Source of the DNA: a virus
Virus record (IMG/VR): IMGVR_UViG_3300030105_002245
Location: 1 to 36,082 of that record
Direction: 5' to 3' (one strand)
Length of the DNA stretch: 36,082 nucleotides
The notes beneath the pieces were generated by a model, which was not told where the DNA came from, made no database searches, and saw nothing but the letters and a program-made list of their open reading frames with translations. Shown here piece after piece: positions 6,142 through 34,839 of the stretch (position 1 is the stretch's first letter; each line of letters begins with the position of its first letter). A program made the position numbers and the translations under genes.

Positions 6142-6206
6142 AAATTTATAAGCCATAATCGCTTACGGTTATTTCCAGTTAACCACTGCAAATCGGTTGT
6201 ATCTAT

Positions 6207-6818: not shown

Positions 6819-8211
6819 ACCCGGACGCGATTTCTATGACAACTGGCACATCGATGCGATAAGTGAGCACCTTCAGGCTGTTGTCGAAGGTGACATCAAG
6901 CGATTGATAATCAACATACCTCCTCGGCACATGAAATCAATTTCCGTAGCGGTTGCACTTCCTGCTTGGACTTGGACCATCCAGCCAGAGAAACGCTTCC
7001 TCTTTGCATCTTATGCTGGGTCTCTTTCCATACGAGACTCGGTAAAGTGTCGCCGCTTAATTACCAGTGCTTGGTATCAAAGCCATTTTGGAGAAAGCTT
7101 TTCCTTGACTGGCGACCAAAACCAGAAGCAGCGTTTTGAGAACGACAAGACTGGCCAGAGGATTGCGACATCAGTTGATGGTGCGTTGACGGGGGAAGGT
7201 GGAGACATCATCGTTATTGATGATCCGCACAATGTTAGAGAGGCTGAGTCTTCGACTGTTCGAGAAGGTGTTCTTGATTGGTGGGATCAGGCAATGCAAA
7301 CCCGGCTGAATGATCCGAAGACTGGTGCCTTTGTAATAATTATGCAGCGAGTTCATGAGAATGACTTAACTGGTCATATCCTTGCGAATGCTAGCAGCGA
7401 GTGGGATCACCTTTGTCTTCCAGCTCGTTATGAAATTGGCCACCCAACACCAACCAAATCTAAATTAAATTTCACAGACCCAAGAACTAAAGAAGGTGAT
7501 CTTCTTTGGCCAGAGAGAGTTGATGATAAAACTCTTACTCGACTTGAAACCTCTCTTGGTTCATATGCCGCAGCTGGCCAGTTACAACAAAGACCAATGC
7601 CAAAAGGCGGCGGCATATTAAAGGCTGAGTGGTGGGTTCCTTGGGAGAAATCTGAGTTGCCGGACATTGAATATATCTTACAGTCTTGGGACACTGCATT
7701 TTCAACAAAAGAGAAAAGCTCATACTCAGCTCGAACAACTTGGGGAGTCTTCCGTCGCAATGGCCAAGTCAATGCGATTGTTCTTGATATGTGGTATGAC
7801 AGAGTAAGCTACCCAGAGTTGCGTCGCATTGCTCAAGAGTCATATGCTGATTTTGAACCTGACGCTGTGCTCATAGAGAAAAAGGCTTCCGGCCAAAGTT
7901 TATTGCAGGATTTGCGCATGGCTGGCATCCCAGTTCTTGCATACTCACCTGACCGAGACAAAGAGTCTCGTGCGCATGCCAGCTCAGCACTTCTCGAAGA
8001 TGGAAGAATTTGGTTCCCTTTTGATAAAAAATGGGCTAAAAATTTGATAGATATTTGTTCTGCCTTTCCTGCAGGTGACAATGACGATGTTGTTGATACT
8101 TGCACACAGGCTTGGCTACGGCTCCGCAAAGGCTGGTTTGTTACACATTCTCAGGATTATGATGACGACGATGTTGATGAGCCAAGAAGAAGGGTAAGTT
8201 TATATGGCTAG
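6769..8211 (+). CDS. terL: Terminase large subunit (DNA packaging ATPase/nuclease)
   Basis: I chose the ATG at 6769 (MRRSLKEFTK), which follows GCGGAGAAG; the open frame extends to 6697 but overlaps the small subunit more. The product is about 480 residues. Counted from this start, the packaging ATPase has the terminase P-loop variant PPRHMKS (51-57) and Walker B IIVIDDP (147-153). It has the nearby coupling region (MQRVHENDLTGHI) and a C-terminal RNase H-like nuclease with acidic positions in QSWDTAF, VLIEKKASGQ and NDDVVDTC. The enzyme pumps DNA into proheads and cuts it. Its stop overlaps the portal start by 8 bp. Confidence 0.95.
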   Translation: MRRSLKEFTKGSWGAIEPGRDFYDNWHIDAISEHLQAVVEGDIKRLIINIPPRHMKSISVAVALPAWTWTIQPEKRFLFASYAGSLSIRDSVKCRRLITSAWYQSHFGESFSLTGDQNQKQRFENDKTGQRIATSVDGALTGEGGDIIVIDDPHNVREAESSTVREGVLDWWDQAMQTRLNDPKTGAFVIIMQRVHENDLTGHILANASSEWDHLCLPARYEIGHPTPTKSKLNFTDPRTKEGDLLWPERVDDKTLTRLETSLGSYAAAGQLQQRPMPKGGGILKAEWWVPWEKSELPDIEYILQSWDTAFSTKEKSSYSARTTWGVFRRNGQVNAIVLDMWYDRVSYPELRRIAQESYADFEPDAVLIEKKASGQSLLQDLRMAGIPVLAYSPDRDKESRAHASSALLEDGRIWFPFDKKWAKNLIDICSAFPAGDNDDVVDTCTQAWLRLRKGWFVTHSQDYDDDDVDEPRRRVSLYG

Positions 8212-10618
8212 TTCCCCAATACCATTTGCAGAGGGTGCCCCGCTTGACAGCCTTAAAACTGAAGACTTTGGTGAGGATGAAGTTCTCATCGGTGATCCTG
8301 ATCTTGATATAGAGCCAGAGCAAGATTCTCAATTTGACGAAAACCTTGCAGAAGATCTTGGTGATCGAGATCTTTCAAAAAAATCAGACTCGCTTATCTC
8401 AATGTATGAGTCAGACCGTGAAGCTCGATCGCAATGGGAAAGTCGTTATAAAGCTGGCCTTAAAACTCTTGATCCTGATGGCGGTCAAGAAGAAGGCGAA
8501 GACGAACGAGCAACTCGTGGTTTAAGCGTTGTTGTTCACCCATTGATTGCTGAAGCTGCAACCCAGTTTAATGCTCGTGCTGTCGCTGAGCTTTATCCTT
8601 CCGGTGGCCCGGTCAAAACAATTATCATTGGTGACCCAGACGAAGAAACCGAAGAGCAAGCTCGCCGGGTCAAAGACTTTATGAATTACCAGATCACTCA
8701 GGAGATGCCCGAGTATTTTCCTGACCTTGATCAAATGCTTTTTTCACTGCCTCTCGTTGGCCAAGCGTTCAAAAAAGTTTGGTGGGATGCAAACTTGGAA
8801 CGTCAGTGCTCTAAGTTCGTTAAGGCTGAAGACTTCGTTGTCTCGCCAGAGAGCACAGACTTGTATACCTCGCTCAGGTACACGCATGTTATTCGCATGC
8901 CTCGTAATGATTATAATCGCTATGTTGAAGCTGGCTGGTATTTGCCGACTGAATACTCTGGCGACAGTTTTGATCCTAGCGGCGACACAACTTCTGAGAT
9001 TGAAGGTGTAAATGCAGCTGGCGACAATCAAGCTGATGAAGTCATGTCGCTTCTTGAGATGCACGTTTACGAAAATTTTGAAGATGAGGATGGCGAAGAG
9101 GATAATGTTGGGCTTCCTTACGTTGTAACCATTGACTACGACTCTCAAAAGGTCGTCAGCATTCGCCGCAACTGGCAAGAAGAAGATGAAAAGAAACTTC
9201 GCCGCGACTGGTTCGTAAGCTATAAGTTCTTGCCCGGTCTTGGCTTTTATGGCTTCGGCCTTTATCACATTATCGGTGGTCTTGGAAAAGCGGCCACAGG
9301 ATCTTTGAGAGCTTTGCTTGACTCAGCTGCATTTGCCAACATGCAAGGCGGCTTTAAATTAAAGGGTCGTGTCAGCGGTGGCGAGATTGATATCAACCCC
9401 GGCGAGTTTGTTGACCTTGATGCGACAGTTGACGATGTAAACAAGGCCATTATGCCTTTGCCATTTAAAGAGCCGTCATCAACTCTCTTTCAATTGCTCG
9501 GCCAGATAACAGATCTTGGGCGCAGATTTGCAAGCACAGCTGATCTTAATGTCGGTGACGTAAATCCCAATGCCCCAGTTGGCTCAACTGTTGCTCTTAT
9601 TGAACAAGGCTCAAAAGCATTCTCGGCCATTCATAAGCGGCTACACCATTCTCAAGGACAAGAGTTCAAACTGCTCGCAGAGCTGAATTCAGAGAACCTT
9701 CCTGAATCATTTAATTTCTCAATGTCTGGCTCAAGCTCAATAATTTATGCCAAGGACTTTGACGACCGCATTGATATTGTTCCGGTCAGTGATCCAAACA
9801 TCTTCAGCACTGCCCAGCGCATTGCCCAAGCTCAGGCCATTCTTGAGATGGCTCGCTCAGCTCCTCAGCTGCATGATGTTTACGAAGCCTATAAAAGAAT
9901 GTACGAAGCAATCCGCATCCCGAATATTGACGAGGTTCTTAAAAAGCCCAAAGAAGCTCCAAGGCTTGATCCAATTGATGAGAACATGAGCATCCTTTAC
10001 GGCAAGCCAATTCGTGCTTTTCCAGAACAGGACCATGAATCTCATATCGCCGTTCACGTTCAGTTTTTATCAGATCCTTCATTGGCTGGTAACCCCGGCG
10101 CAAAAGCCCTTCAGCCAATACTTATTGCTCACATCGCTGAGCACGTTGCACTGCTTTATCGTTCAAGGATGGAAGCCAGCATTGGAATGCCACTGCCTAA
10201 CCTCCCTGACATTCGAGACAAAGATTTTGCCCTTGAAGACATTGATCCGCAAATGGATATGCTTATCAGCCAACGTGCGGCACAAGTTGTCCAACAAGCT
10301 CCACAAATGCAAGAGATTAAAGCCCTTACGTCTATGGGCCAACAAGGTGGACAAAATCCTCTTCAATATGCTCAACAGCTTGCCCAGCTAGAGGCTGATT
10401 CGCTCAAGCTCAGAACGCAAGCAAATATCCAAGTTGATCAGGCCAAGGCTCAATCAGACATGCAAATTGATCAGGCCAAGGCCCAACAGAATATGGAAAT
10501 TGCAGCCATGAAATTGCAAGCTGACCTTGAGGCCAAAGTTAAAAAGCTAGAGGCTGACCTTCAGATTGAACGTGAGAAAAACATTATAAAAACCCAACAG
10601 GAGATAGTCGATGGCTGA
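8204..10618 (+). CDS. Portal protein, large podovirus type
   Basis: The 804-residue product follows the large terminase and is of the size of long P22-like portals. The N-terminus is acidic. The middle contains portal-like features (PLIAEAATQFNARAVAELYP at about 110-130 and DLGRRFASTADLNVGD at about 430-445). The C-terminus is a long Gln/Ala/Lys helix with repeats such as QIDQAKAQ, a likely coiled-coil barrel. Portals form the dodecameric ring at the DNA entry vertex and dock the terminase. Its stop overlaps the next start by 8 bp. Confidence 0.9.
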   Translation: MASSPIPFAEGAPLDSLKTEDFGEDEVLIGDPDLDIEPEQDSQFDENLAEDLGDRDLSKKSDSLISMYESDREARSQWESRYKAGLKTLDPDGGQEEGEDERATRGLSVVVHPLIAEAATQFNARAVAELYPSGGPVKTIIIGDPDEETEEQARRVKDFMNYQITQEMPEYFPDLDQMLFSLPLVGQAFKKVWWDANLERQCSKFVKAEDFVVSPESTDLYTSLRYTHVIRMPRNDYNRYVEAGWYLPTEYSGDSFDPSGDTTSEIEGVNAAGDNQADEVMSLLEMHVYENFEDEDGEEDNVGLPYVVTIDYDSQKVVSIRRNWQEEDEKKLRRDWFVSYKFLPGLGFYGFGLYHIIGGLGKAATGSLRALLDSAAFANMQGGFKLKGRVSGGEIDINPGEFVDLDATVDDVNKAIMPLPFKEPSSTLFQLLGQITDLGRRFASTADLNVGDVNPNAPVGSTVALIEQGSKAFSAIHKRLHHSQGQEFKLLAELNSENLPESFNFSMSGSSSIIYAKDFDDRIDIVPVSDPNIFSTAQRIAQAQAILEMARSAPQLHDVYEAYKRMYEAIRIPNIDEVLKKPKEAPRLDPIDENMSILYGKPIRAFPEQDHESHIAVHVQFLSDPSLAGNPGAKALQPILIAHIAEHVALLYRSRMEASIGMPLPNLPDIRDKDFALEDIDPQMDMLISQRAAQVVQQAPQMQEIKALTSMGQQGGQNPLQYAQQLAQLEADSLKLRTQANIQVDQAKAQSDMQIDQAKAQQNMEIAAMKLQADLEAKVKKLEADLQIEREKNIIKTQQEIVDG

Positions 10619-11234
10619 TTTAGAAGCATTTAGTGGAAGTGCAGTAGCAGAAAGAGAAATGGAAGCACTAGAAAACCCAAACAGGAATATGGCTGGCGCA
10701 GCTATTTCCCCTGATGAAATTAGGCAATCCCTTGCACAATTGCTAAAGATGGAAAGTGGCGCAGCTGTTTCAGACCAAGAGCTTGAAGCATACTTAGCTA
10801 CTCTCTCGCCAGAGGACATTGAGGCAATCATGTCAATGTCAGCTGAACGAACAACTGGCCCTTCAACTGTCGTGCCAATGGCCCCGATTAACCCCGGTGC
10901 TTTTGGTAGCCTTCCATCAGGTGCTGAGATGGACCCAGCGATGAGGGCAATGGCTAATGAACGAACAACTGGCCCAGCAATGGCTGGCCCAGCAACAATG
11001 GCTGGCCCAGCAATGGACCAAAACTCAATGATGCAATATCTTAAAATGAAGGCTGATGATATTAAGTCACGCATGGGCGGTCGCCAGCCAGAAGGCAGTG
11101 TTGATGATTACCTGAAAGCCATGTCTGGTGCAGCAATGACCCCTGAAGAATCATTTACAAAAACAATGCTTGGTGCTGAGAGTGGTGCAGCAATGACCCC
11201 TGAAGAAATGCAAATGATAAGAGGAACTAAATAA
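10611..11234 (+). CDS. Repeat-containing Met/Ala-rich protein after the portal, unknown function
   Basis: This 207-residue protein is low in complexity. An SGAA-type unit followed by a helix start (MAGAAISPDE, ESGAAVSDQE, MSGAAMTPEE, ESGAAMTPEE) occurs at about 27, 48, 171 and 190. ERTTGP occurs at 79-84 and 117-122, and MAGPA repeats follow. GAFGSLP (96-102) resembles a motif seen in several following proteins. Overlapping ATG coupling with the portal suggests a virion or assembly role. I cannot name a family. Confidence 0.8.
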   Translation: MADLEAFSGSAVAEREMEALENPNRNMAGAAISPDEIRQSLAQLLKMESGAAVSDQELEAYLATLSPEDIEAIMSMSAERTTGPSTVVPMAPINPGAFGSLPSGAEMDPAMRAMANERTTGPAMAGPATMAGPAMDQNSMMQYLKMKADDIKSRMGGRQPEGSVDDYLKAMSGAAMTPEESFTKTMLGAESGAAMTPEEMQMIRGTK

Positions 11235-11533
11235 TGGCTGAGATTAATGTTGAGAATATGGAAGACAACGCAGAGCTTTTCATGGAGAAGATGGGCTTTG
11301 CACATGACACCGAAGGGCTTGAGCTTTCTGATGACCAGCTTGTAAACTTCCTTTTGATCTGTCACCAGATGGAATATGGCATCGGTGGGGAAGAGCATGA
11401 AGAAGATGAATCTCGTGCAGATGATGATGGCATGAAAGTCAAAGTCATAAAGATGCATGGCGGCGGCGACATGAGCAGTCTCATTGATGAGATGATTGGA
11501 CATGGTGGCCCAGAAGTCAAAGAAAGATATTGA
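11234..11533 (+). CDS. Small acidic protein, unknown function
   Basis: The 99-residue product starts with a TAATG overlap with the previous gene. It is acidic and helical (EDNAELFMEKMGF, LSDDQLVNFLLICHQMEYG) with a central acidic linker (EEHEEDESRADDDG) and a C-terminal KVIKMHGGGDMSS segment. It may be a head-assembly accessory factor, judged only from its place after the portal. Confidence 0.75.
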   Translation: MAEINVENMEDNAELFMEKMGFAHDTEGLELSDDQLVNFLLICHQMEYGIGGEEHEEDESRADDDGMKVKVIKMHGGGDMSSLIDEMIGHGGPEVKERY

Positions 11534-11539
11534 TGCCTT

Positions 11540-11659
11540 ATGATGCCTTACAATAAATATTCACCAAAGCAAAAGAAGCTGGCGGCTGTTGCAGGAAACA
11601 AGAAAAAAATTACAGCGGCTGACTTTAAAAAGCTGAAGAAGAAAAAGAAGAAGGCATAG
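11540..11659 (+). CDS. Tiny Lys-rich protein (39 residues)
   Basis: The ORF reads MMPYNKYSPKQKKLAAVAG, then a poly-lysine end. A second ATG at 11543 is equally possible. The PYNKYSPKQKKLA start and ITAADFKKLKKKKKK end are familiar to me from small ORFs in other marine phage genomes, which supports it as a real gene. It may bind DNA or RNA through its lysines. Its stop overlaps the next GTG start (TAGTG). Confidence 0.7.
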   Translation: MMPYNKYSPKQKKLAAVAGNKKKITAADFKKLKKKKKKA

Positions 11660-12753
11660 TGGTTCCGATCTCAGTTATAAGAGAGGCTATTGAGGGCGGT
11701 GCAAACCTGTCAGGGGAGGCTATCGATTACTTGCAACGCACATTGCGAGGATTTGGTGCTTTAGAAAATCTCCCGGCTTCTAAAACAAAAGCAGATTTAG
11801 ATCCTGCTCAGCTGGGTGCACTAAGGCTCCCTGACTATGTTGAGAATATAGAATATAAGACAACAGATAAAGGGGTGCTTGTTCCAGAGAAGACCATTGA
11901 TATTGCTGATTTAAAGGGACGGCTTTTAACCCCTGCTTACGGAGATAGGACTTATGCTGGATCTACCCTTGATGAAATTGCCGGAGTTAAACTAGATCGC
12001 TCTGTAGACATGGAAGGTGGAAACCAATTCATGCGCAATGTTGACCCCGGAGTTTGGGCATCAGAAAAGAAAGCGATGGAGAGAAAAGCCGCAGCAATGG
12101 CAAAAATTCGTAAAGACACGGGTGAAGATCCATTGATGGTTTACACAGCTATGTCTGGACAATCTGGTGATGCATCTGACATGATGGCTGACGCTACAAT
12201 GGGAATGGTTGAGCTGAGCAAGATAGCTAAAAAATCTGCAAAAGCCTATGACGATACAATTAAAAAAATGGTAGATCCTGAGTGGCCGGGTATCTTATCT
12301 AAAGGTGCTCGTGAATATGTAAATAAAATGCCTATGACGGCTAGTCGAGAGCTTTGGCAGCAGATGGATAAAAAGATGTTCAAAGACATGGGGTTTCCTG
12401 ATGTTGGAGTAATTAGAACATCTATTACTGATCGTGAACTTCTGACAGTTCCTTCTTTCACTACAGGCAAAGGCATAAGTTCGCTCAGCTCAACCAAGAC
12501 ATTCCCCTCAAAGCACCAGACTTATAACACAGAAGTCAGAGGAGATTATTTAGGAGCACTGCCAAAGCAAGTTCCCGGCCAGCTAGTGTGGAGAGACTTC
12601 TTTAAAAACATGGCTGAAAGATTAGAAACTACAGGCAAATCCAATCCACAAAGGGCAATGCTTATGACCCCAAGCATACAGCAGAGAGTTGATGATCAAA
12701 TGATCGATGAGATCAGCCAATTTACTGAGGCTTTTGGAGGCCAAACGAAATGA
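11659..12753 (+). CDS. Conserved phage protein of the polyvalent-like module
   Basis: The 364-residue protein uses a GTG start overlapping the previous stop. The N-terminus has two motifs of the series described in the findings (FGALENLP at 32-39 and LGALRLP at 52-58), and LGALP occurs again at 298-302. The centre (DPGVWASEKKAMERK, then DPLMVYTAMSGQSGDASDMM at 158-177) is a block I recall from large polyvalent proteins of marine phages. No catalytic motif is recognised. Its 3' end overlaps the minus-strand gene at 12722-12916 by 32 bp. Confidence 0.8.
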   Translation: MVPISVIREAIEGGANLSGEAIDYLQRTLRGFGALENLPASKTKADLDPAQLGALRLPDYVENIEYKTTDKGVLVPEKTIDIADLKGRLLTPAYGDRTYAGSTLDEIAGVKLDRSVDMEGGNQFMRNVDPGVWASEKKAMERKAAAMAKIRKDTGEDPLMVYTAMSGQSGDASDMMADATMGMVELSKIAKKSAKAYDDTIKKMVDPEWPGILSKGAREYVNKMPMTASRELWQQMDKKMFKDMGFPDVGVIRTSITDRELLTVPSFTTGKGISSLSSTKTFPSKHQTYNTEVRGDYLGALPKQVPGQLVWRDFFKNMAERLETTGKSNPQRAMLMTPSIQQRVDDQMIDEISQFTEAFGGQTK

Positions 12754-12916
12754 GCCTCCTTGTTCCACTTTCATTTAGGCCCAAGGCATTGTCTAGCATA
12801 GGGTCGAGCATCTCTAGCCTATCCATAATTTCAGGGACTATTTCTGCATTTGGAGATGCGTCTAAAACTATCTCCCAAATTTCATCTAGAAGATCTTCTT
12901 TATTTGTCTCGTCCAT
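12722..12916 (-). CDS. Lone antisense small gene in the late operon (64 residues)
   Basis: The start at 12916 follows TTTTTAGAAAGGAAACACA, the same leader used by the early genes. A near-consensus promoter lies just upstream on the same strand. The product is acidic and helical (MDETNKEDLLDEIWEIVLDA, then EIMDRLEMLDPMLDNALGL). No family is recognised. Because it opposes the surrounding late genes and has its own promoter, it looks like an independently expressed accessory gene. Its 3' end overlaps the 11659-12753 gene by 32 bp. Confidence 0.7.
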   Translation of the reverse strand: MDETNKEDLLDEIWEIVLDASPNAEIVPEIMDRLEMLDPMLDNALGLNESGTRRLISFGLQKPQ

Positions 12917-12944
12917 TGTGTTTCCTTTCTAAAAATAAAGGACT

Positions 12945-12973
12945 ATTATAATCTATTTTTTAAAGGCTTGCAA
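12945..12973 (-). promoter_or_regulatory. Near-consensus sigma70 promoter for the lone minus-strand gene
   Basis: Read on the minus strand, TTGCAA (12973-12968) and TATAAT (12950-12945) are separated by 17 bases. The predicted transcription start is about 20 bases before the ATG at 12916, leaving just enough leader for the AGAAAGGAAA ribosome site. This is the best sigma70-like promoter I found in the window. Confidence 0.75.
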
Positions 12974-12976
12974 GAA

Positions 12977-13150
12977 ATGGCTGTTAAAAAGAAACCAAAG
13001 AGAGATGCCTGTTATAAAAAAGTAAAGGCTCGCTACACAAGGGGCGGCGGCACTTGGCCATCAGCTTACGGGTCAGGGGCTTTGGTTAAATGCAGAAAAG
13101 TTGGCGCAAAGAACTGGGGCAAGAAGAGTGGCAGCAAAAAGAAAAAGTAG
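12977..13150 (+). CDS. Small basic conserved phage protein
   Basis: The ATG at 12977 gives 57 residues (MAVKKKPKRDACYKKVKARY, then WPSAYGSGALVKCRKVG). This pattern, with two cysteines and a WPSAYGSGALVKCR block, is one I recognise from small proteins of marine phages and some large algal viruses. It ends in a lysine run and three stop codons in a row. The charge suggests nucleic-acid binding or virion packaging, but that is inferred. Confidence 0.8.
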   Translation: MAVKKKPKRDACYKKVKARYTRGGGTWPSAYGSGALVKCRKVGAKNWGKKSGSKKKK

Positions 13151-13373
13151 TAGTAGTGATAGCTTACGTCAGTGGTTCGGTCGCAACAAAGGCAAGGGCT
13201 GGGTTGATTGCAAGACTGGCAAGCCATGTGGACGTAAATCTAGAACCAAAACTAAGAGAGGCTATCCTGCCTGTAGGCCAACAATGTCACAGTGTAAATC
13301 AAAGGCAGCTAAATCAGCAACCAAACGCAAGACATCATCTACTCGTATAAATTGGAAAGGAAAAAAGAAATGA
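13128..13373 (+). CDS. Small basic Cys-containing conserved phage protein
   Basis: No ATG is available. A GTG at 13128 (behind AAGAAGA) gives 81 residues. The recognisable part is SLRQWFGRNKGKGWVDCKTG, then CGRK, YPACRPTMSQC and a final INWKGKKK. It belongs to the same small basic protein group as its neighbours and has cysteines that could bind zinc. It overlaps the previous gene in another frame by 23 bp. Confidence 0.72.
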   Translation: MAAKRKSSSSDSLRQWFGRNKGKGWVDCKTGKPCGRKSRTKTKRGYPACRPTMSQCKSKAAKSATKRKTSSTRINWKGKKK

Positions 13374-13513
13374 AGAAAGCTGTCGAAGCTCCCAAAGGGT
13401 TTCACTGGATGAAGTCTGGCAAAGGTTTTAAGCTAATGAAGGGGATCTATAAACCTCATACTGGCTCTGTTAAAAAAGCTTCTTTTGAAGTTCAAAAAGT
13501 CCACAAAAAATAA
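13370..13513 (+). CDS. Tiny basic protein (47 residues)
   Basis: The ATG at 13370 overlaps the previous stop (ATGA) and follows GGAAAGGAAAAAAGAA. The product reads MKKAVEAPKGFHWMKSGKGF, then KLMKGIYKPHTGSVKKASF and ends in lysines. No family name is known to me. It is tightly coupled to both neighbours (TAATG at its end), which supports translation. Confidence 0.72.
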   Translation: MKKAVEAPKGFHWMKSGKGFKLMKGIYKPHTGSVKKASFEVQKVHKK

Positions 13514-13770
13514 TGGCTAAATACCAAAATCGCAAAGTTACGCTTAACAAGCCTCGCCGGATTGCCAAAGGTGAAACCAGCCATGGCAAAAAGAAGTCCG
13601 TCGTCTACGTTATGGATGGCGACAAGGTGAAGCGTGTGACATTCGGTGATCCTAACATGCGAATAAAGAAAACTCAGTCCGGTCGCAGGAGCAACTTTCG
13701 TGCTCGTCATAACTGCGATACCCCCGGCCCAAAAACAAAGGCACGATATTGGTCGTGCAAGGCATGGTGA
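13513..13770 (+). CDS. Conserved small basic protein with FGDPNM and RARHNCDTPG motifs
   Basis: The 85-residue product contains VTFGDPNMRIKK and RSNFRARHNCDTPGPKTKAR, ending in YWSCKAW. I recognise this pair of blocks as a widespread small protein family found in tailed phages and in large DNA viruses of algae. The function is unknown. The cysteines and histidine could bind metal. It starts by a TAATG overlap with the previous gene. Confidence 0.85.
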   Translation: MAKYQNRKVTLNKPRRIAKGETSHGKKKSVVYVMDGDKVKRVTFGDPNMRIKKTQSGRRSNFRARHNCDTPGPKTKARYWSCKAW

Positions 13771-13774
13771 TATA

Positions 13775-14119
13775 ATGGACTATAATTTTGGAGCACTTCC
13801 TGATGATCCAATTCTTAATCATCACTTCAACAATCTCAACCAAAACAAATTTGTTGAAAATGATGATGGCTCAATATCAACTGTTTATACTCGACAGATA
13901 GATGTTGATGGAGTTCCGACACTCATCCCGAGTGTTTGGGATGGTGAGATATTAGGAGAGCCTGAAGCAAGAAACAGGGCACTTGAAACTGGTATAAATT
14001 GGCCCACTGCGGAAACCCATGAAATGCTGAGAAATTATGATATTGAGCTTCACAAGTATATGAAGCCTCCAGCTAATATTTACTCAGGAGTGTTGCCCAA
14101 TGCCAGCAGCTCTAAGTAA
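13775..14119 (+). CDS. Small protein with conserved phage NDDGSIST/PTVWDG-type domain
   Basis: The ATG at 13775 (MDYNFGALPDDPI) gives 114 residues. FGALP is at residues 5-9. The middle (ENDDGSISTVYTRQIDVDGV, then LIPSVWDGEIL and ALETGINWPTAETHE) matches a domain I remember as a segment of large phage proteins, without known activity. Here it stands alone. It overlaps the ADP-ribosyltransferase-like gene by 20 bp. Confidence 0.75.
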   Translation: MDYNFGALPDDPILNHHFNNLNQNKFVENDDGSISTVYTRQIDVDGVPTLIPSVWDGEILGEPEARNRALETGINWPTAETHEMLRNYDIELHKYMKPPANIYSGVLPNASSSK

Positions 14120-14726
14120 AATAGCAAAAGAAGGTGTCGAAAGTGCAGCTGACTTTTTAAAAAGTTTTAGTAAAAAAGTTTATCATGGTCAGCAAGACAC
14201 AGATACTTCGGCTGGAGTTATAAAATATGGTGACAGGGAAATCCTTGTCGAAGATGCTACAGGTGAATATGGAGGCATAAACGCATTTCAAAGTTCTGCT
14301 GATAAAGATCCGAGCACATTCCCCTCTGATTTAGGAACATGGGTTAGCGAATCAAAAGATGTCGCTGATTTTTTTGCTGGGAAAGCAGGGGCAGTTTATC
14401 CTCTTAAAATAAAACTTAACAATCCAAAGATATATGATGAATATGAAGACATGGAAGCTGATTTATTTCAATCTGACAACACTGGAGATTTTGTTGATTT
14501 TTTAAAAAGCAAAGGTCATGATGGAATAGAAATAACCAACAGCTTTACTGATATACCTCAATCAAGGACAGATTATGTTGTTTTTGATTCTCGCAATATA
14601 AGGTCTGTTAATGCACAGTTTGATCCGAGCAAAGCAGATTCAAGAAACATACTGGCATCAGTACCAGCCGCAGCACTAACTGGCTATGGCGCATTGGAGG
14701 CAATCAATGGCCAAAGCATCGATTAA
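14100..14726 (+). CDS. ADP-ribosyltransferase-like polyvalent domain protein
   Basis: The 208-residue product begins behind CAGGAGTGTTGCCCA. The typical ART layout is visible: a VYHG strand (27-30, H29 a candidate NAD-binding residue), GTWVSESKDVADFFAG (79-94), VYPLKIKLNNPKIYDE (99-114), GHDGIEI (139-145) and YVVFDSRNIRSV (159-170). This matches the ART domain of phage polyvalent proteins, which modify host proteins or nucleic acids early in infection. Whether this copy is catalytic is not shown. The C-terminus has a hydrophobic stretch (ASVPAAALTGYGALEA). Confidence 0.8.
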   Translation: MPAALSKIAKEGVESAADFLKSFSKKVYHGQQDTDTSAGVIKYGDREILVEDATGEYGGINAFQSSADKDPSTFPSDLGTWVSESKDVADFFAGKAGAVYPLKIKLNNPKIYDEYEDMEADLFQSDNTGDFVDFLKSKGHDGIEITNSFTDIPQSRTDYVVFDSRNIRSVNAQFDPSKADSRNILASVPAAALTGYGALEAINGQSID

Positions 14727-14898
14727 AAAAGTAGCCGCCGCAGAAATTCGTGCAGCCAAGAGTTTTCTTGAGCGCAGGGGAATTAAGTCTGATGAAGTCA
14801 GCCCCAAGAAATTTGCCAAAGCTGCAAAGGAACTTGATAAGGGATTTCAAGAAACGCTACAAGTCCTTGCTCGTGAGCTTTCTGGAGGCCAAGTTTAA
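14707..14898 (+). CDS. Small basic helical protein (63 residues)
   Basis: The ATG at 14707 follows TTGGAGGCAATCA. The protein (MAKASIKKVAAAEIRAAKSF, then ERRGIKSDEVSPKKFAKAAK) is a basic-acidic amphipathic helix set. It overlaps the previous gene by 20 bp, and its stop overlaps the next start (TAATG). No family is recognised. Confidence 0.7.
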   Translation: MAKASIKKVAAAEIRAAKSFLERRGIKSDEVSPKKFAKAAKELDKGFQETLQVLARELSGGQV

Positions 14899-17354
14899 TG
14901 GACTTTAATAAATTTTCAAACAACCTAAAGCAAAAGGTTCTTGAAATCCCTGAGGAGCTTCAAAAATTTGGTGCACTTCCTGTAGAAAATAATGCTCCGC
15001 CTGAATTAAATCTTAGCGGTGCACTGGAGATGCTGCCAGTACAGCAACGCAGAAACAATACGGGCTTTCCATCTGCGTACCCTGTGCCTGAGAGCACACC
15101 ATTTGCAGACTTTGGCAGGGGTATACTGGATGCGTTTAGCTACACGCCTGATCCGAATAAAACCTTTATGGAACGCTCATTTGTTCCATTAGCTGCTGAT
15201 ATGGAATCGATGATTTCTGGTTTTGATGCCAAGGGCAATAAAGTGCCTGACTCTCTGCGGATGATGTCATTGATGATGCCGGGTGGTACAGGTCTGGGTG
15301 GCAAGGCAGGGCTTGGTATTCTAGGCGCAGCTACAGGTGCAGCCCCTAAGGTTGGCAGTGCATATGCGTCACGTTTGATACCCACGTTGGAAAATATGCC
15401 ACAGGATAAGATGAGCGCAGAGCAGTTTAGTGGCTGGTTGAGCAAACAGCCTGTTGGTGCTGATGAGCTAGAGTATTCTGGAATCCTTGGCTTGCTAAAT
15501 GAAGGCGGCGATGTAACCAAGACAAGATTGCTCGATCAGGCAAGGGCTAATCCGCTTGATATACAGGATGTGGTTCTTGGTGCGCCCCCTTCATATACAT
15601 ATGATAAGAAGCGATTAGCAGCACTTGAAAACGAACATGCCAACCTTACGGAACACGCAATTGATACACCTAGTTTTGGCGAAGCTAAATATAACGAAAT
15701 GATTAAACTGATGAACATTCGTGACAAAAGCACAACACAGTCACTATATGCTTTAGCAGATGAAAAAATGAAGGCAGGACAGATAGCACAGAGACGAGGC
15801 AATAATGAACTTGCTGAGAGTTTTTTTGAAGAATACAACTTCCTTAACACAAGAGCAGAAAAGTTAGATTTAGAGGATTTGGGTGCGCTGCCTGTTCCCA
15901 CAAAGTTCTCTGATTACCAGCTCCCCGGCGGTGAAGACTACCGGGAAATGCTGCTGACGTTGCCTAAAGGCAGGCCGAAGGACGCTGCAGCGTATGATAA
16001 GCAGTTGATGGGATTTGTAGACAGGGCAGTAGCTAAATTTAAGGAAGATACTGTCGCTGGTGGGATGCTTGAAGCCGATGCGGCAGAATTAGCGCAGCGT
16101 GTTTTTGAGCCAGATAACAGAAGGGAATATTTCAGCAAGGCAGCTAAATATCTTGGTGAAGAAGATGAGATGCGAGCAGTTAGTGAAGCCTATTTTGCAA
16201 AAGCGCAGCGTCCTTCAGATTTCAAATCGGGTCACTTTGACGAACCCAATGTCCTAGCCCATGCACGATACAACACACGCACCATTGATGGTGACAAGAC
16301 GCTGTTTATTGAGGAGATACAAAGCGACTGGCATCAGAAGGGGCGTGATGTGGGGTATAAATATGACGCTACTTATAAGGCGCAAAAAACTAGGATGGCT
16401 GAATTAGAGAAAAAAGGCCCAAGTACTACGGATGCGGAACGCGCAGAATATTCAGACCTTGAAGATCTGACAACAGAATACGACCAGATGGGCAAAGTCC
16501 CAGACGCACCATACAAACGCACAGATAAATGGGCTGGGCTGACATTACAGCGCATGGTCAAGGAAGCTGTTGACAGTGGGCATGACCGCATAGCGTGGAC
16601 ATCGGGAAAGGTACAGGCAGAGCGATATGATTTGAGTCAGCAACTAGACAGTATTGATGTCTACGATGAAGGCGGCAAGCGGTTGGTAGACATTAATGAC
16701 ACTAACAATATTCACGTAATGGAAAGCCCAATAGATATTGAGACAGGATTAATCGAAAGCGGTAATTTTCAGGGCAAGTTTCTTGAAGATGTTGTTGGAA
16801 AAGAAATGTCTGAAAAAATTCTTGGATCAGTAGGAGATGTTTCATTTGCAGGTACAGACCTACAAATTGGTGGTGACGGCATGAAGGAATTTTACGACAA
16901 GATGCTAGTCAAATCCGCTAACAAGTTCGGCAAGAAATATGGTGCAAAAGCTGAAATTACAAATATGTCAAACGTCAACAATGAAGATTTACTTGTTGCC
17001 CAAAATGACCCTAGTACATACAGCCAGTACGAAAACTGGATTGAAGAAAAAGGTCTTGATTTTGATAACGAAGACATAGCGTACAGCGAAAAGTTATGGA
17101 CAGAGTTTCTTGATGATATTGCAGAAGACTCTGGATTTAAAGGTGCTGGGCAAGTCTGGTCAATGAAGATCACCCCTGAGATGAAGGCTGGCATCAGCAA
17201 AGGTGTAATGCTTGGTCAGACGGGTGCAGAAGGCAAAGTTGCTGCTGGATTATTATCGCAAGATGACGATGAACAGATGCCCAGTGATTTGCCTATGCGT
17301 GACCTGCTTGGTGGCACACTTTACACTGCGACAACACCAGACGGATTTATTTAA
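14898..17354 (+). CDS. Large polyvalent-protein-associated (LPD-type) domain protein
   Basis: This 818-residue protein is the largest of the module. The N-terminus has FGALP (24-28), GALEMLP (41-47) and a Gly/Ala/Met-rich stretch (about 120-150) that could be membrane-seeking. LGALP recurs at 328-332. The C-terminal half carries GHFDEPNVLAHARYNTRT (445-462), LFIEEIQSDWHQKGRDVGYK (469-488), DRIAWTSGKVQAERYDL and a final VWSMKITPEM. This is the known pattern of a polyvalent-protein-associated domain described by Iyer and colleagues. Such proteins are thought to enter the cell with phage DNA and counter host defence. No activity is proven here. Confidence 0.82.
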   Translation: MDFNKFSNNLKQKVLEIPEELQKFGALPVENNAPPELNLSGALEMLPVQQRRNNTGFPSAYPVPESTPFADFGRGILDAFSYTPDPNKTFMERSFVPLAADMESMISGFDAKGNKVPDSLRMMSLMMPGGTGLGGKAGLGILGAATGAAPKVGSAYASRLIPTLENMPQDKMSAEQFSGWLSKQPVGADELEYSGILGLLNEGGDVTKTRLLDQARANPLDIQDVVLGAPPSYTYDKKRLAALENEHANLTEHAIDTPSFGEAKYNEMIKLMNIRDKSTTQSLYALADEKMKAGQIAQRRGNNELAESFFEEYNFLNTRAEKLDLEDLGALPVPTKFSDYQLPGGEDYREMLLTLPKGRPKDAAAYDKQLMGFVDRAVAKFKEDTVAGGMLEADAAELAQRVFEPDNRREYFSKAAKYLGEEDEMRAVSEAYFAKAQRPSDFKSGHFDEPNVLAHARYNTRTIDGDKTLFIEEIQSDWHQKGRDVGYKYDATYKAQKTRMAELEKKGPSTTDAERAEYSDLEDLTTEYDQMGKVPDAPYKRTDKWAGLTLQRMVKEAVDSGHDRIAWTSGKVQAERYDLSQQLDSIDVYDEGGKRLVDINDTNNIHVMESPIDIETGLIESGNFQGKFLEDVVGKEMSEKILGSVGDVSFAGTDLQIGGDGMKEFYDKMLVKSANKFGKKYGAKAEITNMSNVNNEDLLVAQNDPSTYSQYENWIEEKGLDFDNEDIAYSEKLWTEFLDDIAEDSGFKGAGQVWSMKITPEMKAGISKGVMLGQTGAEGKVAAGLLSQDDDEQMPSDLPMRDLLGGTLYTATTPDGFI

Positions 17355-18343
17355 TGGCTGAAGAAATTGACTTATATCCCCAGCTGGGCGCACTTCCTGC
17401 ATTTACTGAAGATGGGCGAATTAATATTCCAACTCAGGCAGCGGCTGATGTTATTGCGAAGCAAGGATCAATGTTTTCAGCTGACCCAACATTGCAACAA
17501 AGAAACAATGCATCTGTAGCTAATTTTTTAACAGACACGCTAGGAATGGATAGCCGTAAAGCTGCTCAATTTAGTGATAAAGTTATTGGTGGCCCTCGTT
17601 CAGCGTTGCCTTTTGGAATGGGACTTGCAGACATAACTCCTATGGGCATAGCTTATGCTCTTGACGAAGCCGCTAGTGGGTATGCCAAGGCTGAAGAGCC
17701 TTTGGACTATGTGATGCCCACTGTCATGGGTGCTTTGGGAGCTGCCGAAACATTATTCTTGGGTAAATTATTAGCTACCCCACTCAAAGGATTTTTAAAA
17801 TCTCTGAGTGGAAAACTTCCTAGCCAACCTGTCGATGTTCCCAACTTGCCTATTCGCCCATCGCAGGAGAATATGAGAAATTTGCTTGACGCAAACACTT
17901 ATGGCGGCAGAATTTTGGGTGATGAAATTGTTGACATTAACACATTGTCAGGAGGCTCTTCTGTTAGCAAACGAGGGCAAGACAATGTTGTTGACATAGC
18001 TAATCAAATGAGAGGTCCGAAGGGCTATATTGAACGAATTGTAGTTGATCAAGATGGTAGCGTAATTGAGGGCGCACACAGGCTTGGCGCATTGCGGAGC
18101 CTTGGAATTAACAATGTGCCAATAACACGAATTATTGATCCAACTTCAAATATTAATTTGCCTAAAATGGGTGATGCTATAAAAAGTGTTGGCCCTATTA
18201 ATTCTGATAATGTAAATCAAATTATATCGCAAGTTGGTGACTTGCTAAGCGAGGTTGGTGGAGACGTTGGTCGAATTCGATCTGAATATGAATTTCCAAA
18301 GGGATTTGAAAAGCACTTCAATGCAGCACTTAATTCAATCTAA
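17354..18343 (+). CDS. ParB-like nuclease-domain protein of the polyvalent module
   Basis: The 329-residue product has LGALP at 11-15, a region shared with the previous protein (LQQRNNASVANFL versus VQQRRNNTGFP), and a conserved-looking segment (PRSALPFGMGLADITPMGIA) at about residue 76. From residue 225 a ParB/sulfiredoxin-type fold is visible: YIERIVVDQDGSVIEGAHRL, with EGAHRLGALRSLG as the core motif. ParB-like domains include DNases and CTPases. In polyvalent proteins they probably act on DNA. The gene starts by a TAATG overlap. Confidence 0.8.
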   Translation: MAEEIDLYPQLGALPAFTEDGRINIPTQAAADVIAKQGSMFSADPTLQQRNNASVANFLTDTLGMDSRKAAQFSDKVIGGPRSALPFGMGLADITPMGIAYALDEAASGYAKAEEPLDYVMPTVMGALGAAETLFLGKLLATPLKGFLKSLSGKLPSQPVDVPNLPIRPSQENMRNLLDANTYGGRILGDEIVDINTLSGGSSVSKRGQDNVVDIANQMRGPKGYIERIVVDQDGSVIEGAHRLGALRSLGINNVPITRIIDPTSNINLPKMGDAIKSVGPINSDNVNQIISQVGDLLSEVGGDVGRIRSEYEFPKGFEKHFNAALNSI

Positions 18344-18437
18344 AGCAAGCAGCTCAAATCTGTTAGCATTTTCTGCACCTATAGCAATTGGTGTTGGCGC
18401 ACTTTCCCAGTTACCGGAAGAGACTGGTGTTAAATAG
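18321..18437 (+). CDS. Tiny hydrophobic protein overlapping the ParB-like gene, or its frameshifted tail
   Basis: The 38-residue ORF (MQHLIQSKASSSNLLAFSAP, then IAIGVGALSQLPEETGVK) starts 23 bp inside the previous gene in the +1 frame. It has one hydrophobic segment and a GALSQLP motif. The pattern resembles the hydrophobic end of the 14100-14726 protein, so it might be the true C-terminus reached by a frameshift or an ancestral frame break. An AAAGGG lies upstream of the ATG, but the spacing is long. Confidence 0.4.
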   Translation: MQHLIQSKASSSNLLAFSAPIAIGVGALSQLPEETGVK

Positions 18438-18477
18438 ATCTTCCTTCCCATCTCTGATCTCTAAAGGAGGCAAAAAG

Positions 18478-18570
18478 ATGAAGATGTACGGCAAAAAGAA
18501 AAAGCCTATGCTTAAAAAGAAAAAGCCTATGCTTAAAAAGAAGAAGATTGTAACAAAAGGTAGTTACTAA
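18478..18570 (+). CDS. Tiny Lys-rich repeat protein (30 residues)
   Basis: A perfect AAAGGAGG ribosome site ends 7 bases before the ATG at 18478. The product is MKMYGKKKKPMLKKKKPMLK, then KKKIVTKGSY, with a tandem KKKKPML repeat. Its stop overlaps the next ATG. The composition suggests nucleic-acid binding. The strong ribosome site argues for high translation. Confidence 0.7.
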   Translation: MKMYGKKKKPMLKKKKPMLKKKKIVTKGSY

Positions 18571-18710
18571 TGGACGACAAAACAGAAAATGTTGTTGAGG
18601 TTAATGTTACTGGAGTCAGCGGAAAAATAGGAGTAAGCGATGACAGTGCCCGACCTTCTGAAGACGATAAAGGAGACTCTTCGAAATCAGAAAACGACAA
18701 TAGCGAATGA
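18570..18710 (+). CDS. Tiny acidic protein overlapping the next gene (46 residues)
   Basis: The ORF (MDDKTENVVEVNVTGVSGKI, then a Ser/Asp/Glu-rich tail) starts by a TAATG overlap with the Lys-rich gene. Its second half overlaps the 18640-18837 gene by 71 bp in a different frame. The tail looks disordered. The overlap lowers confidence, but coupled translation is plausible. Confidence 0.5.
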   Translation: MDDKTENVVEVNVTGVSGKIGVSDDSARPSEDDKGDSSKSENDNSE

Positions 18711-18837
18711 TATGGTTGAGGGTCGCATGAGCGATCTTCTAGCCTATCATAGAAACGTCGGTGTGGCAGAGGGCTTAGAGCAAGCCTGTGAGATCATCGA
18801 CGATATGTTGAAAAAACTTAATGAAGGAGACGAATAA
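18640..18837 (+). CDS. Small helical conserved phage protein (65 residues)
   Basis: The ATG at 18640 follows TAGGAGTAAGCG. The product (MTVPDLLKTIKETLRNQKTT, then YHRNVGVAEGLEQACEIIDD) is helical. I recall the type from small phage proteins near capsid genes. It ends just before the co-chaperonin gene, whose ribosome site (AAGGAGACGAA) lies inside its 3' end. Confidence 0.75.
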   Translation: MTVPDLLKTIKETLRNQKTTIANDMVEGRMSDLLAYHRNVGVAEGLEQACEIIDDMLKKLNEGDE

Positions 18838-18839: not shown

Positions 18840-19244
18840 ATGACTCGTCAACATGTTGATAAAATAATTGTTGATGATGAGAGCGAATCTAAAATTGGTT
18901 CTCATCAACTTCCCACCCCCATTGGCTGGAAAGTTTTAGTCCAGCCAGCTCAGGTAAAGAAAAAAACAAAAGGTGGCGTTCTGCTTCCTTCTCAGTCTCA
19001 AGATGCTGAGGAATATCTGACAGCTAACGGCACTCTGCTTTCTTTAGGGCAGCTTGCTTATCGTGATAGAGACACAGGCCAATCATGGAAAGGCCAATGG
19101 CCCAAAGCTGGTGACCATATAACTTATGGAAAATATGCTGGGCAAAAAGTTGTCATAAACGAAGTTAAACTTCTGCTGCTTAATGATGATGAGATTACAT
19201 CAATCATTCCTAAGGGCGTTAGTTTAAGCTCATACGTTAGTTAA
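18840..19244 (+). CDS. groES-like: GroES-like co-chaperonin (Cpn10)
   Basis: The 134-residue protein has the Cpn10 layout: an N-terminal strand GWKVLVQPAQ (29-38), a mobile loop VKKKTKGGVLLPS (39-51) with the GGVLLP contact site for GroEL, and a core ending in WPKAGDHITYGKYAGQKVVI (87-106) and LLLLNDDEI (111-119). It has an acidic extension of about 24 residues at the N-terminus and an insertion before WPKAG, so it is longer than bacterial GroES (about 97). Located directly before scaffold and major capsid genes, it probably pairs with host GroEL to fold capsid protein, as phage T4 Gp31 does. Confidence 0.88.
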   Translation: MTRQHVDKIIVDDESESKIGSHQLPTPIGWKVLVQPAQVKKKTKGGVLLPSQSQDAEEYLTANGTLLSLGQLAYRDRDTGQSWKGQWPKAGDHITYGKYAGQKVVINEVKLLLLNDDEITSIIPKGVSLSSYVS

Positions 19245-19254: not shown

Positions 19255-20169
19255 ATGGAAGAAGAAGAAAGCAACGAGGCTCTTGAGCAAGTTCAAAAAG
19301 AGATTGATGAAACAATTAAACAGGCTGGCAAAGAAGATTTTGAGATTGAAATTGTTGAAGATGCTCTTGAGCCAGAGCAAAAGGCTGAGGCTGAACAAGA
19401 GCCTGAGACAGAGCCTGAATATGGAGAGAAGGTCCAGCGAAGGATTAAAAAACTTGTAGATCAACGCCGAGAGGCAGAGCTGCAAGCTCGTGGATTTCAA
19501 GAGCAAACGGCACAACTTCAGTCTCGTCTTGAGCGTCTTGAAAAGGGAACTGAAAATTCTGCTCGCCATCAGGCAGAAAGTGATTTCCAGTCTCGTTATC
19601 AGGAAACACGATCTGCTCTTGCAAAGGCCGTTGAAGAAGGTGACACTGAAAACCAGCTTCAATTTACAGAGCAGTTGGCAGACATGCGTGCCGCTATTCG
19701 TATTGCTGAACTTCAAAAATCCCAAGCCGCCCAACAAGCGTCTTCGCCAACAGTTGGCAGGGCACAACAGGCGGCACAAGCTCCAGCTCCAAAAAAAGCA
19801 ATGGACTGGTGGCAGAAAAATCGTTGGTTTAATTCCTCTGGATTTGAACGAGAAACAGCTGCAGCTCGTGCAATTGATGTCCAATTAGACATTGAAGGAT
19901 TTGATAAAGATTCAGAAAATTACTACGAGGCTTTGAATAAGCGTTTACGAAATGTTTTTCCTGAGCTAAACTCGGATCGTGAACCTACTAAGGCAAGACC
20001 AAAAAGCAGATCTCCAGTAGCACCAACTGCAGGTGGGTCGTCTTATAAGGGGAACCGGGTTCGGCTCTCTAAAGATCAATTGAGAATGGCCAGAGAGCTT
20101 GGTATTACTGATGAAGCTGGTCTTAAAATTTATGAGGCCGAAGTTCGTCGGCAAAAAATATCAAACTGA
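19255..20169 (+). CDS. Probable capsid scaffold protein
   Basis: The 304-residue protein is acidic and highly charged at the N-terminus, then has a long coiled coil (about 60-125: VQRRIKKLVDQRREAELQAR and later RSALAKAVEEGDTENQLQFT). A Gln/Ala-rich linker and a basic C-terminus (RVRLSKDQLRMARELGI) follow. A basic helical C-terminus is where P22-type scaffolds contact the coat protein. The location between co-chaperonin and capsid genes and the ribosome site AAGGGGAATATT support the call. Confidence 0.82.
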   Translation: MEEEESNEALEQVQKEIDETIKQAGKEDFEIEIVEDALEPEQKAEAEQEPETEPEYGEKVQRRIKKLVDQRREAELQARGFQEQTAQLQSRLERLEKGTENSARHQAESDFQSRYQETRSALAKAVEEGDTENQLQFTEQLADMRAAIRIAELQKSQAAQQASSPTVGRAQQAAQAPAPKKAMDWWQKNRWFNSSGFERETAAARAIDVQLDIEGFDKDSENYYEALNKRLRNVFPELNSDREPTKARPKSRSPVAPTAGGSSYKGNRVRLSKDQLRMARELGITDEAGLKIYEAEVRRQKISN

Positions 20170-21263: not shown

Positions 21264-22175
21264 ATGGCTATGAATAGAGCACAATTTGCAAAAATGCTCG
21301 AGCCGGGTCTTAACACCCTCTTTGGCCTCGAGTATGACAGCTACCCAGCAGAATACGTTCCGGTGTTTTCTGCCAACACCTCCCAGAAAGCGTATGAAGA
21401 AGACGTTTTGTTGGAAGGCTTTGGACTTGCTCCTGTGAAAGGAGAAGGTGCTTCGGTTTCTTATGATGCGGCATCCCAACAATGGACTGCTCGTTATCAG
21501 CATGAAACCATCGCTCTTGCTTTCTCGATTACAGAAGAAGCTGAAGAAGATGGACAGTATGGTTCCATCGCCTCTCGTTACACCAAAGCTCTCGCTCGTT
21601 CGATGTCTTCGACGAAAGAGATTAAAGCTTCAAATGTCCTTAATGATGCTTTTTCTGGCTCTGGTGTTCTTGGTGGTGACGGCAAAACCCTTTGTGCAAC
21701 TGATCACCCTTCTCGTTCGGGAAGTCAGTCAAATGCATTGGCGACTGCTGCTGATCTGTCTGAGACTTCTCTCGAGCAGATCCTTATCCAGATTGCTGAC
21801 ATGAAAGACGATCGCGGTCTCCGCATCGCCGCTCAGGGCACAATGCTGGTTATCCCAACTGCCTACACGTTTGTGGCAGAAAGGTTGCTTGAGTCTCAGC
21901 TCCGCACAGGAACTGCAGACAACGACATTAATGCGATTCGCCAAGGCGGCTATTTGCCAAAAGGCTATCATGTTATGCGTCGTCTAACCGATTCTGATTC
22001 ATTCTTCATTACTACGGATGTTCCAGATGGCCTCAAGCACTTCCAACGCTCTCCTCTTAAAAAGGGCATGGAAGGCGACTTTGAAACAGGCAATGTTCGC
22101 TACAAAGTTCGTGAGCGTTATTCTTTCGGTTTCACCGATTGGCGTGGCGTTTTCGGCACTGGTGGTGCTGCCTAA
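21264..22175 (+). CDS. Major capsid protein (HK97-fold, Mu gpT-like group)
   Basis: The 303-residue protein follows the scaffold and decoration genes behind AGGAGGAATGAACA. It contains an N-terminal arm, the block SYDAASQQWTARYQHETIAL (about 76-95), a conserved capsid core (LCATDHPSRSGSQSNALATA) and a C-terminal domain ending RYKVRERYSFGFTDWRGVFG. These match the major head protein group related to Mu gpT that I know from phages. A strong terminator follows, as expected for an abundant product. Confidence 0.9.
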   Translation: MAMNRAQFAKMLEPGLNTLFGLEYDSYPAEYVPVFSANTSQKAYEEDVLLEGFGLAPVKGEGASVSYDAASQQWTARYQHETIALAFSITEEAEEDGQYGSIASRYTKALARSMSSTKEIKASNVLNDAFSGSGVLGGDGKTLCATDHPSRSGSQSNALATAADLSETSLEQILIQIADMKDDRGLRIAAQGTMLVIPTAYTFVAERLLESQLRTGTADNDINAIRQGGYLPKGYHVMRRLTDSDSFFITTDVPDGLKHFQRSPLKKGMEGDFETGNVRYKVRERYSFGFTDWRGVFGTGGAA

Positions 22176-23377: not shown

Positions 23378-23390
23378 TATTGTAATTGTC

Positions 23391-23410
23391 GCAGGGGCTT
23401 CGGCCCCTGC
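23391..23410 (+). other. Intercistronic 8-bp hairpin with UUCG loop
   Basis: GCAGGGGC (23391-23398), TTCG and GCCCCTGC (23403-23410) form a perfect stem with a stable tetraloop, but only TTC follows. The ribosome site of the next gene (AAAAGGAG) begins five bases later. It is more likely an RNA-stability or processing element, or a weak terminator. Confidence 0.7.
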
Positions 23411-23428
23411 TTCAAAAGGAGTAAGCTA

Positions 23429-23842: not shown

Positions 23843-23851
23843 GAGAGCTTG

Positions 23852-26206: not shown

Positions 26207-26216
26207 GGTTTAGGCG

Positions 26217-27371: not shown

Positions 27372-27383
27372 AAGGAAAAAATT

Positions 27384-27713: not shown

Positions 27714-27718
27714 GTAAA

Positions 27719-28258: not shown

Positions 28259-28260
28259 CG

Positions 28261-28605: not shown

Positions 28606-28612
28606 GTGACTA

Positions 28613-34527: not shown

Positions 34528-34839
34528 ATGGCTGAACCAATGATGATGAATGGCGCAACTGATAGTCCACTTTCTATGCTTTCTGCAGAAGCTCGTGAAG
34601 GCATGATGCGGCCATCTGAAGAGATTAAGGCAGTGTTGCTTGCTCGCCTTGGAAACATGGCTCCTGAAGAGCTGAGCATGCTTGATCAAGCAATAACCCC
34701 GGCTGTTGCTCAAGTTCTTGTAAGGCTACTGCCAGAGTTGCGTGAGATTGTTGAGCAAGTTGGTGCTCAGGAAAGTGCTCCAGAGCAGGAGGCTCCTATG
34801 CAGGGTGGTGAGCAGATGGGTGCTTTGAGTGGAATGTAA
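34528..34839 (+). CDS. Small Met/Glu/Gln-rich protein, unknown function
   Basis: The 103-residue product starts behind AAGGAGATTTAAT. It is helical and rich in Met, Glu and Ala (EEIKAVLLARLGNMAPEELS), with a Gln/Glu-rich tail ending MGALSGM. It may act as a virion accessory or chaperone. Position between two ejection-type genes suggests an internal head protein. Confidence 0.7.
   Translation: MAEPMMMNGATDSPLSMLSAEAREGMMRPSEEIKAVLLARLGNMAPEELSMLDQAITPAVAQVLVRLLPELREIVEQVGAQESAPEQEAPMQGGEQMGALSGM

Follow-up and report, generated by a model that had tools for sequence, protein, structure and literature searches.

How effector proteins are chosen for entry into the particle is an open question for most phages, and a short loading signal has been described for T4, in which diverse internal proteins that interact with the host share only a conserved capsid-targeting sequence (CTS) that sends them into the head precursor (PMC3012670). 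In encapsulins, short cargo peptides with an hGSL core (h, hydrophobic residue) dock cargo on an HK97-fold shell (PMC7925596, PMC10960027), using a pocket that includes an N-terminal helix absent from most phage capsids (PMC8346489). Proteins of the polyvalent class are predicted or known to travel in phage heads and to enter the cell (PMC5512222). A comparable short motif was examined in the whole IMG/VR virus record IMGVR_UViG_3300030105_002245 (36,082 bases), referred to below as the window, where it recurs in proteins encoded between the portal and capsid genes. The motif, Phi-G-A-L(-x-N-[LIV]-P) (Phi, hydrophobic residue), is interpreted as a short linear docking motif that serves as an address tag for virion loading in phages related to CRP-901, and we assign this reading a probability of roughly 60%.

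A preliminary description of the window had given the motif as [F/L/V]GAL(x0-2)LP and knew of it in no described system. The constant core of that form, Phi-G-A-L, held, whereas the downstream P proved to be one element of a looser consensus, x-N-[LIV]-P, and the statement on described systems was too strong in view of the T4 CTS (PMC3012670) and the encapsulin hGSL peptides (PMC7925596, PMC10960027). All of the copies that had been listed were present at their given residues. Counting against shuffled sequences, which had been proposed as a check, placed the motif far above expectation, with 9 occurrences of GALx0-2LP in the 49 open reading frames (ORFs) of the window (shuffle mean 0.29, maximum 3; 2000 shuffles) and 5 of [FL]GALP (shuffle mean 0.027, maximum 1).

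The window is related to Roseobacter phages CRP-901 and CRP-902, members of a genus abundant in marine settings (PMC10149686), and its portal protein is 73% identical to the portals of both. Identity to the portals of Pelagibacter phages HTVC023P and HTVC027P, phage DSL-LC04 and Caulobacter phages is ~35-45%. Relatives were gathered by searches with the portal, the capsid and 33162 (genes are named by their first position), giving 100 related loci, and the ORFs between portal and capsid, termed the module, were compared with all other ORFs after dereplication at 60% identity. This comparison, also suggested earlier, showed that the motif recurs in the modules of related phages, with 123 copies of [FYLIVM]GAL (hGAL) in 68.7k module residues and 19 in the 133k residues of the remaining ORFs. 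Permuting G, A and L into the five alternative orders gave 6-9 occurrences in the module, and shuffles averaged 10 (maximum 20, 300 shuffles), while the 19 copies outside the module fell within the permutation range and represent no enrichment. Copies with a downstream P (x0-3) numbered 47 in the module against 0-5 for the permutations. An unbiased k-mer search of the module returned GAL as the top 3-mer, FGAL as the top 4-mer and GAL..L and GAL.N as the top gapped patterns, and the positional profile of the module copies was [FMYLVI]-G-A-L-[PGS]-N-[LIV]-P, with A preferred over S (hGAL 123, hGSL 24).

hGAL is carried by 24 of 113 homology families, compared with 4-7 for the permutations and 6.3 (maximum 12) for shuffles. 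The carrier families are mutually non-homologous and the flanks around the copies are unrelated, in agreement with the earlier remark that the proteins are otherwise unrelated. The tag is encoded by 38 different DNA 9-mers and selection therefore acts on the protein; this codon diversity also rules out DNA-level repeats as the source of the copies. As a separate observation, GGCGCC is strongly avoided in all CRP-901-like loci (30 seen, 234 expected by a Markov estimate) and GGTGCC less so (123 seen, 255 expected), and GCC is therefore almost never the alanine codon of the GAL motif. The shortage of GGCGCC looks like restriction-site avoidance. A scan of the collection with TTTGGNGCNYTNNNNAAYATHCC (FGALxNIP) returned 74 contigs that were essentially chance matches, and at this sensitivity no other phage group with clustered motifs. 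Nothing relevant on GAL motifs in phage cargo emerged from literature searches and, as far as the searched literature shows, the motif is previously unremarked.

Close relatives were defined by a portal at least 65% or a capsid at least 77% identical, and cousins by capsids ~60% identical. The modules of close relatives contain 190 hGAL copies in 98.7k residues. No hGAL was found in the 12,237 amino acids (aa) of the cousin modules (HTVC023P, DSL-LC04 and Caulobacter type), where ~23 would be expected at the close-group rate, though the cousin modules are smaller and contain other genes, so that the comparison is not gene by gene. The tag can also be seen to come and go within homologous genes. 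The homologue of gene 14898 in locus L008 (57% identical) is without both the N-terminal extension carrying FGALP and SGALEMLP and the LGALPVP insert, and the remainder aligns; the homologue in locus L007 retains the LGALPVP copy. The portal, capsid and scaffold markers of the window were all not found in L008. The gene 13775 homologue in Roseobacter phage CRP-738, which was not recovered by the window portal search, starts MDPILEHHF where the window has MDYNFGALPDDPILNHHF. At the level of sequence comparison, order-specific selection on the protein, restriction to one lineage, and modular gain and loss are shown, and the view of the tag as a selected, modular and lineage-specific protein motif is well supported. 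In the cousin L219 (GenBank accession number MW202675.1), two unrelated cargo proteins (coordinates 6168-8711 and 8753-11449) end in KALALTRSFTKR and RALSLTSRYTARH, and one of them also has KRALDMVSGYQ near its N-terminus. These endings may represent a different recurrent tag of that lineage.

In complete carriers, 45 of 105 copies lie in the first 60 aa (28.7 expected) and 30 of 105 in the last 30 aa (12.9 expected). The 123 dereplicated module copies divide into 56 in the first 60 aa, 28 in the last 40 aa and 39 internal ones. A placement near the N-terminus or between domains had been noted before, and the enrichment in the first 60 aa agrees with it and is accompanied by enrichment at the C-terminus. 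Examples of N-terminal copies are MNQFGALPKE, MHYGALPKK and MGIFGALDNLG, and C-terminal copies often follow a hydrophobic stretch, as in VLSVPFGGVGYGALNTIPEEDGT and LFSIPFIGGVGYGALQNVGEDDGEGGS and, in the window, LASVPAAALTGYGALEAINGQSID. Gene 34528 is the cleanest case, with MGAL at the C-terminus in all 39 homologues found and M-G-A-L-x-x-M invariant in an alignment of 24 sequences, behind a linker that could not be aligned. In a structure model of moderate quality, helices extend to residue 82 and are followed by a disordered tail that holds the motif. Homologues of 33162 carry VGALTGLP, YGALP, LG[AV]LP or LGGL near the N-terminus.

The copies in the window (Table 1) differ in standing. The LGALP at residues 298-302 of gene 11659 was rejected as a tag, as it aligns with GDYVGGLP in an untagged homologue (L218) and with GEYVADVP in another homologue (L219) and is an ordinary run within a domain. 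On the alignments, the list in the preliminary description is best read as real tags plus at least one coincidence. Two copies that had been called looser variants, GYGALEA in gene 14100 and MGALSGM in gene 34528, rank among the strongest and match C-terminal tags conserved across relatives. Homology of gene 11659 to other phages begins only at residue 69. In gene 17354, two further hGAL (residues 125 and 244) fall in or beside domains, and the ORF at 18321 overlaps the end of this gene in the +1 frame (18255-18437 against 17354-18343) and carries the tag as AFSAPIAIGVGALSQLPEETGVK; it may be a small separate gene or the product of a frameshift or sequencing error. Among relatives, hGAL is present in 39 of 51 portal-adjacent proteins of one family (FAM2) and in 7 of 8 of another (FAM12).

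Domains found in the carriers include ART-PolyVal (3), PBECR5 nuclease (2), ParB-like (gene 17354) and a polyvalent-like region (gene 14898), which are of polyvalent type, and the carriers are neighboured by portal and terminase genes. The domain of gene 13775 also forms the N-terminal part of P22-like DNA-transfer (ejection) proteins in Aeromonas phage 4_4512 and Proteus phage vB_BPM-V3. Scans of viral contigs for relatives of 13775 and 17354 found none.

In the proposed mechanism, interchangeable accessory proteins encoded between the portal and capsid genes, such as polyvalent-type effectors and ejection-type proteins, would bear one or more copies of the tag in flexible ends or linkers, as would the core carriers, namely the portal-adjacent 10611 family, 34528 and the N-terminus of 33162. 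The tag would bind one conserved partner during head assembly, and its carriers would thereby be enclosed in the head and released with the DNA at infection. The candidate partners comprise the scaffolding protein, the HK97-fold capsid protein at its inner face, and the small proteins encoded by 11234, 14686 and 18640. These three small proteins were detected in all 15 tagged modules and in none of the 13 untagged ones, a distribution that reflects a single phylogenetic split and in which diverged homologues may escape detection; cousins have genes of similar size just ahead of the GroES-like gene, the place occupied by 18640. The best PDB matches of the capsid model include the T. maritima and M. 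xanthus encapsulins with TM-scores of ~0.5 or less, no better than phage capsids, so the predicted fold would be compatible with a likeness to encapsulins and does not discriminate. The capsid profile had no match among PDB chains by sequence. Close and far groups differ at 24 capsid positions, and no pocket was indicated.

Targeting to the virion is read from the gene context, and we infer loading, a partner and release or ejection from the sequences. The earlier suggestion that the proteins share a tag for head targeting or ejection is well supported as regards a selected, modular and lineage-specific motif, with virion targeting itself suggested by gene context. Several observations weigh against the virion-loading reading. 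Cousins with the same capsid, scaffold and portal architecture carry module genes without the tag, and the capsid fold alone therefore does not explain it. An exact hGAL is present in only 76 of the 163 module proteins of at least 150 aa, some copies are domain-internal and ordinary, such as residues 298-302 of gene 11659, and the partner is at present a set of candidates.

The alternative that survives best, though we consider it unlikely, is that the motif docks on a shared partner for another role, such as transit of the portal and tail during ejection, association of cargo proteins with one another within the particle, or binding to a host protein once injected. The carriers 34528 and 33162 sit in the tail and ejection cluster, beyond the head module, the motif is not tied to the capsid fold as such, and host- or ejection-side binding would yield the same sequence statistics. 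However, host binding would predict the motif in early non-virion proteins, and no enrichment was seen outside the module (19 hGAL in 133k aa).

It is improbable that the motif is a processing site of a head maturation protease, a possibility raised in the preliminary description. In its favour are the frequent placement of copies at termini or domain junctions and the processing of several internal proteins by prohead proteases in T4-like and giant phages. However, a scan of ten structural and module genes recognised no protease, which leaves the rest of the genome or an unrecognised protease as possible sources, and matches of the capsid protein to protease-capsid fusions were confined to the capsid portion (phrog_4523, 485-643 of 644; phrog_133, 383-663 of 668). 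Cleavage in 34528 and at many C-terminal copies would also release only a few residues.

Descent of the copies from one ancestral long polyvalent protein, also proposed earlier, or from spreading DNA repeats is very hard to sustain: the carriers adjoin and some share domains with very long proteins (a 7 kb gene in L223 and CRP-3 gp36 of 1,292 aa), but the 24 families are non-homologous, with unrelated flanks, differing copy positions and 38 DNA codings, homologues in other phages lack the tagged segments, and long homologues lack the motif. Chance or composition can be practically dismissed because, although G, A and L are abundant in the carriers and some copies are ordinary (11659 residues 298-302), the permutation and shuffle controls and the C-terminal copy conserved in all 34528 homologues speak against it.

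A broader form of the virion-loading reading is offered tentatively, and we hold it with less confidence than the reading itself. Any protein gaining a Phi-G-A-L tag would be bound by a dedicated receptor, perhaps 11234, 14686 or 18640, and loaded into the head. Such a plug-and-play system would parallel, in phages, the cargo peptides of encapsulins, and different tags would be expected in other phage lineages. If virion loading is correct, packaged and injected proteins could be predicted among the so far anonymous accessory genes of a phage lineage that is abundant in the sea. It could also offer a new means of bringing foreign proteins into phage heads and would bear on the origin of encapsulin cargo peptides.

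The gene order in the window is terminase, portal (8204), accessory block, GroES-like gene (18840), probable scaffold (19255), HK97-fold capsid protein (21264), and tail and ejection genes. A short lysine-rich ORF (KKKKPMLKKKKPMLKKKK; 18388-18570) lies ahead of the scaffold cluster and has matches in all close relatives, which are of low complexity and to be checked; it possibly encodes a DNA-condensing peptide. Locus L093 (contig IMGVR_UViG_3300029266_000575) is near-identical to the window over genes 22256 to 34839 and extends beyond its right end, where the next large protein bears NFALGALKGVPYETR near its C-terminus, conserved in relatives.

Table 1. Copies of the motif, candidate partners and bordering genes in the window
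Feature	Coordinates	Strand	Basis
Portal protein, left border of cargo module	8204..10618	+	phrog_1216 portal match
Degenerate, looser copy GAFGSLP, residues 96-102 of gene 10611 (portal-adjacent family)	10896..10916	+	hGAL found in portal-adjacent proteins of related phages
Small conserved protein, candidate tag receptor or adaptor (lead only)	11234..11533	+	15/15 tagged, 0/13 untagged modules
Tag FGALENLP, residues 32-39 of gene 11659, N-terminal part	11752..11775	+	Outside domain common to other phages
Tag LGALRLP, residues 52-58 of gene 11659	11812..11832	+	Motif match; before homologous domain
LGALP, residues 298-302 of gene 11659, unlikely to be a tag	12550..12564	+	Conserved-domain alignment
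Tag FGALP, residues 5-9 of gene 13775-14119	13787..13801	+	N-terminal insertion relative to CRP-738 homologue
C-terminal tag YGALEAIN, residues 196-203 of gene 14100-14726, after hydrophobic stretch	14685..14708	+	Layout as in C-termini of CRP-901 gp66/gp68 and relatives
Strongly conserved 70-aa protein inside cargo module, candidate receptor or adaptor (lead only)	14686..14898	+	15/15 tagged, 0/13 untagged modules
Tag FGALP, residues 24-28 of gene 14898-17354, N-terminal extension	14967..14981	+	Extension missing in 57%-identical L008 homologue
Tag SGALEMLP, residues 40-47 of gene 14898, N-terminal extension	15015..15038	+	Extension missing in L008
Tag LGALP, residues 328-332 of gene 14898, inter-domain insert	15879..15893	+	Kept in L007; insert missing in L008; unaligned in L223/L219
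Tag LGALP, residues 11-15 of gene 17354-18343	17384..17398	+	CRP-3 homology starts at residue 44
C-terminal-type tag VGALSQLP in ORF 18321-18437, after hydrophobic stretch	18393..18416	+	Layout as in C-termini of relatives
Conserved 65-aa protein, candidate receptor or adaptor (lead only)	18640..18837	+	15/15 tagged, 0/13 untagged modules by tblastn
GroES-like co-chaperonin, right border of module	18840..19244	+	PF00166, E 5.9e-13
Probable scaffolding protein, possible tag partner	19255..20169	+	phrog_28737 (unknown function), position and composition; precedes capsid gene
Major capsid protein, HK97 fold (Mu gpT/phage_capsid_4), possible tag partner	21264..22175	+	Profile matches and structure prediction
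Loose N-terminal copy GALSLLGGALDN of gene 33162-34526 (tape-measure/internal virion-like)	33189..33224	+	Looser versions in homologues
C-terminal tag MGALSGM, residues 97-103 of gene 34528-34839	34816..34836	+	Conserved in homologues

Compared with the polyvalent proteins (PMC5512222), the carriers described here are alike in having ART-PolyVal, PBECR5 and ParB-like domains in a phage with portal and terminase genes, but many of them are small single-domain proteins, accompanied by core proteins; in the part of that account drawn on here, packaging is predicted and no shared loading tag is named. The T4 CTS is likewise a short sequence common to otherwise diverse proteins. The CTS is N-terminal, works through the scaffolding core and is then cleaved by the prohead protease. 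However, the motif here is Phi-G-A-L-x-N-[LIV]-P, is N-terminal only in part of its copies, can occur more than once in a protein, at either end or in linkers, and is a feature of a small podovirus-like marine lineage in which removal of a CTS type by a prohead protease was not seen, no protease being recognised among the head genes. The family 1 encapsulin peptides (GSLxIGSLK, LTVGSLRR, TVGSL) share with it a short hydrophobic-G-small-L core on flexible C- or N-terminal ends and an HK97-fold shell (PMC7925596, PMC10960027, PMC8346489), and here too a conserved motif lies on the flexible termini of unrelated proteins (24 families, terminal enrichment). The GSL core with a basic residue is not shared, as hGAL (123) outnumbers hGSL (24) and is followed by P/G/S, N, L/I/V and P at +4 to +7, and docking on this capsid is only putative, cousin phages with the same capsid type being without the tag. 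The motif would most likely be a new head-loading tag, different from the T4 CTS and the encapsulin peptides and like them in principle.

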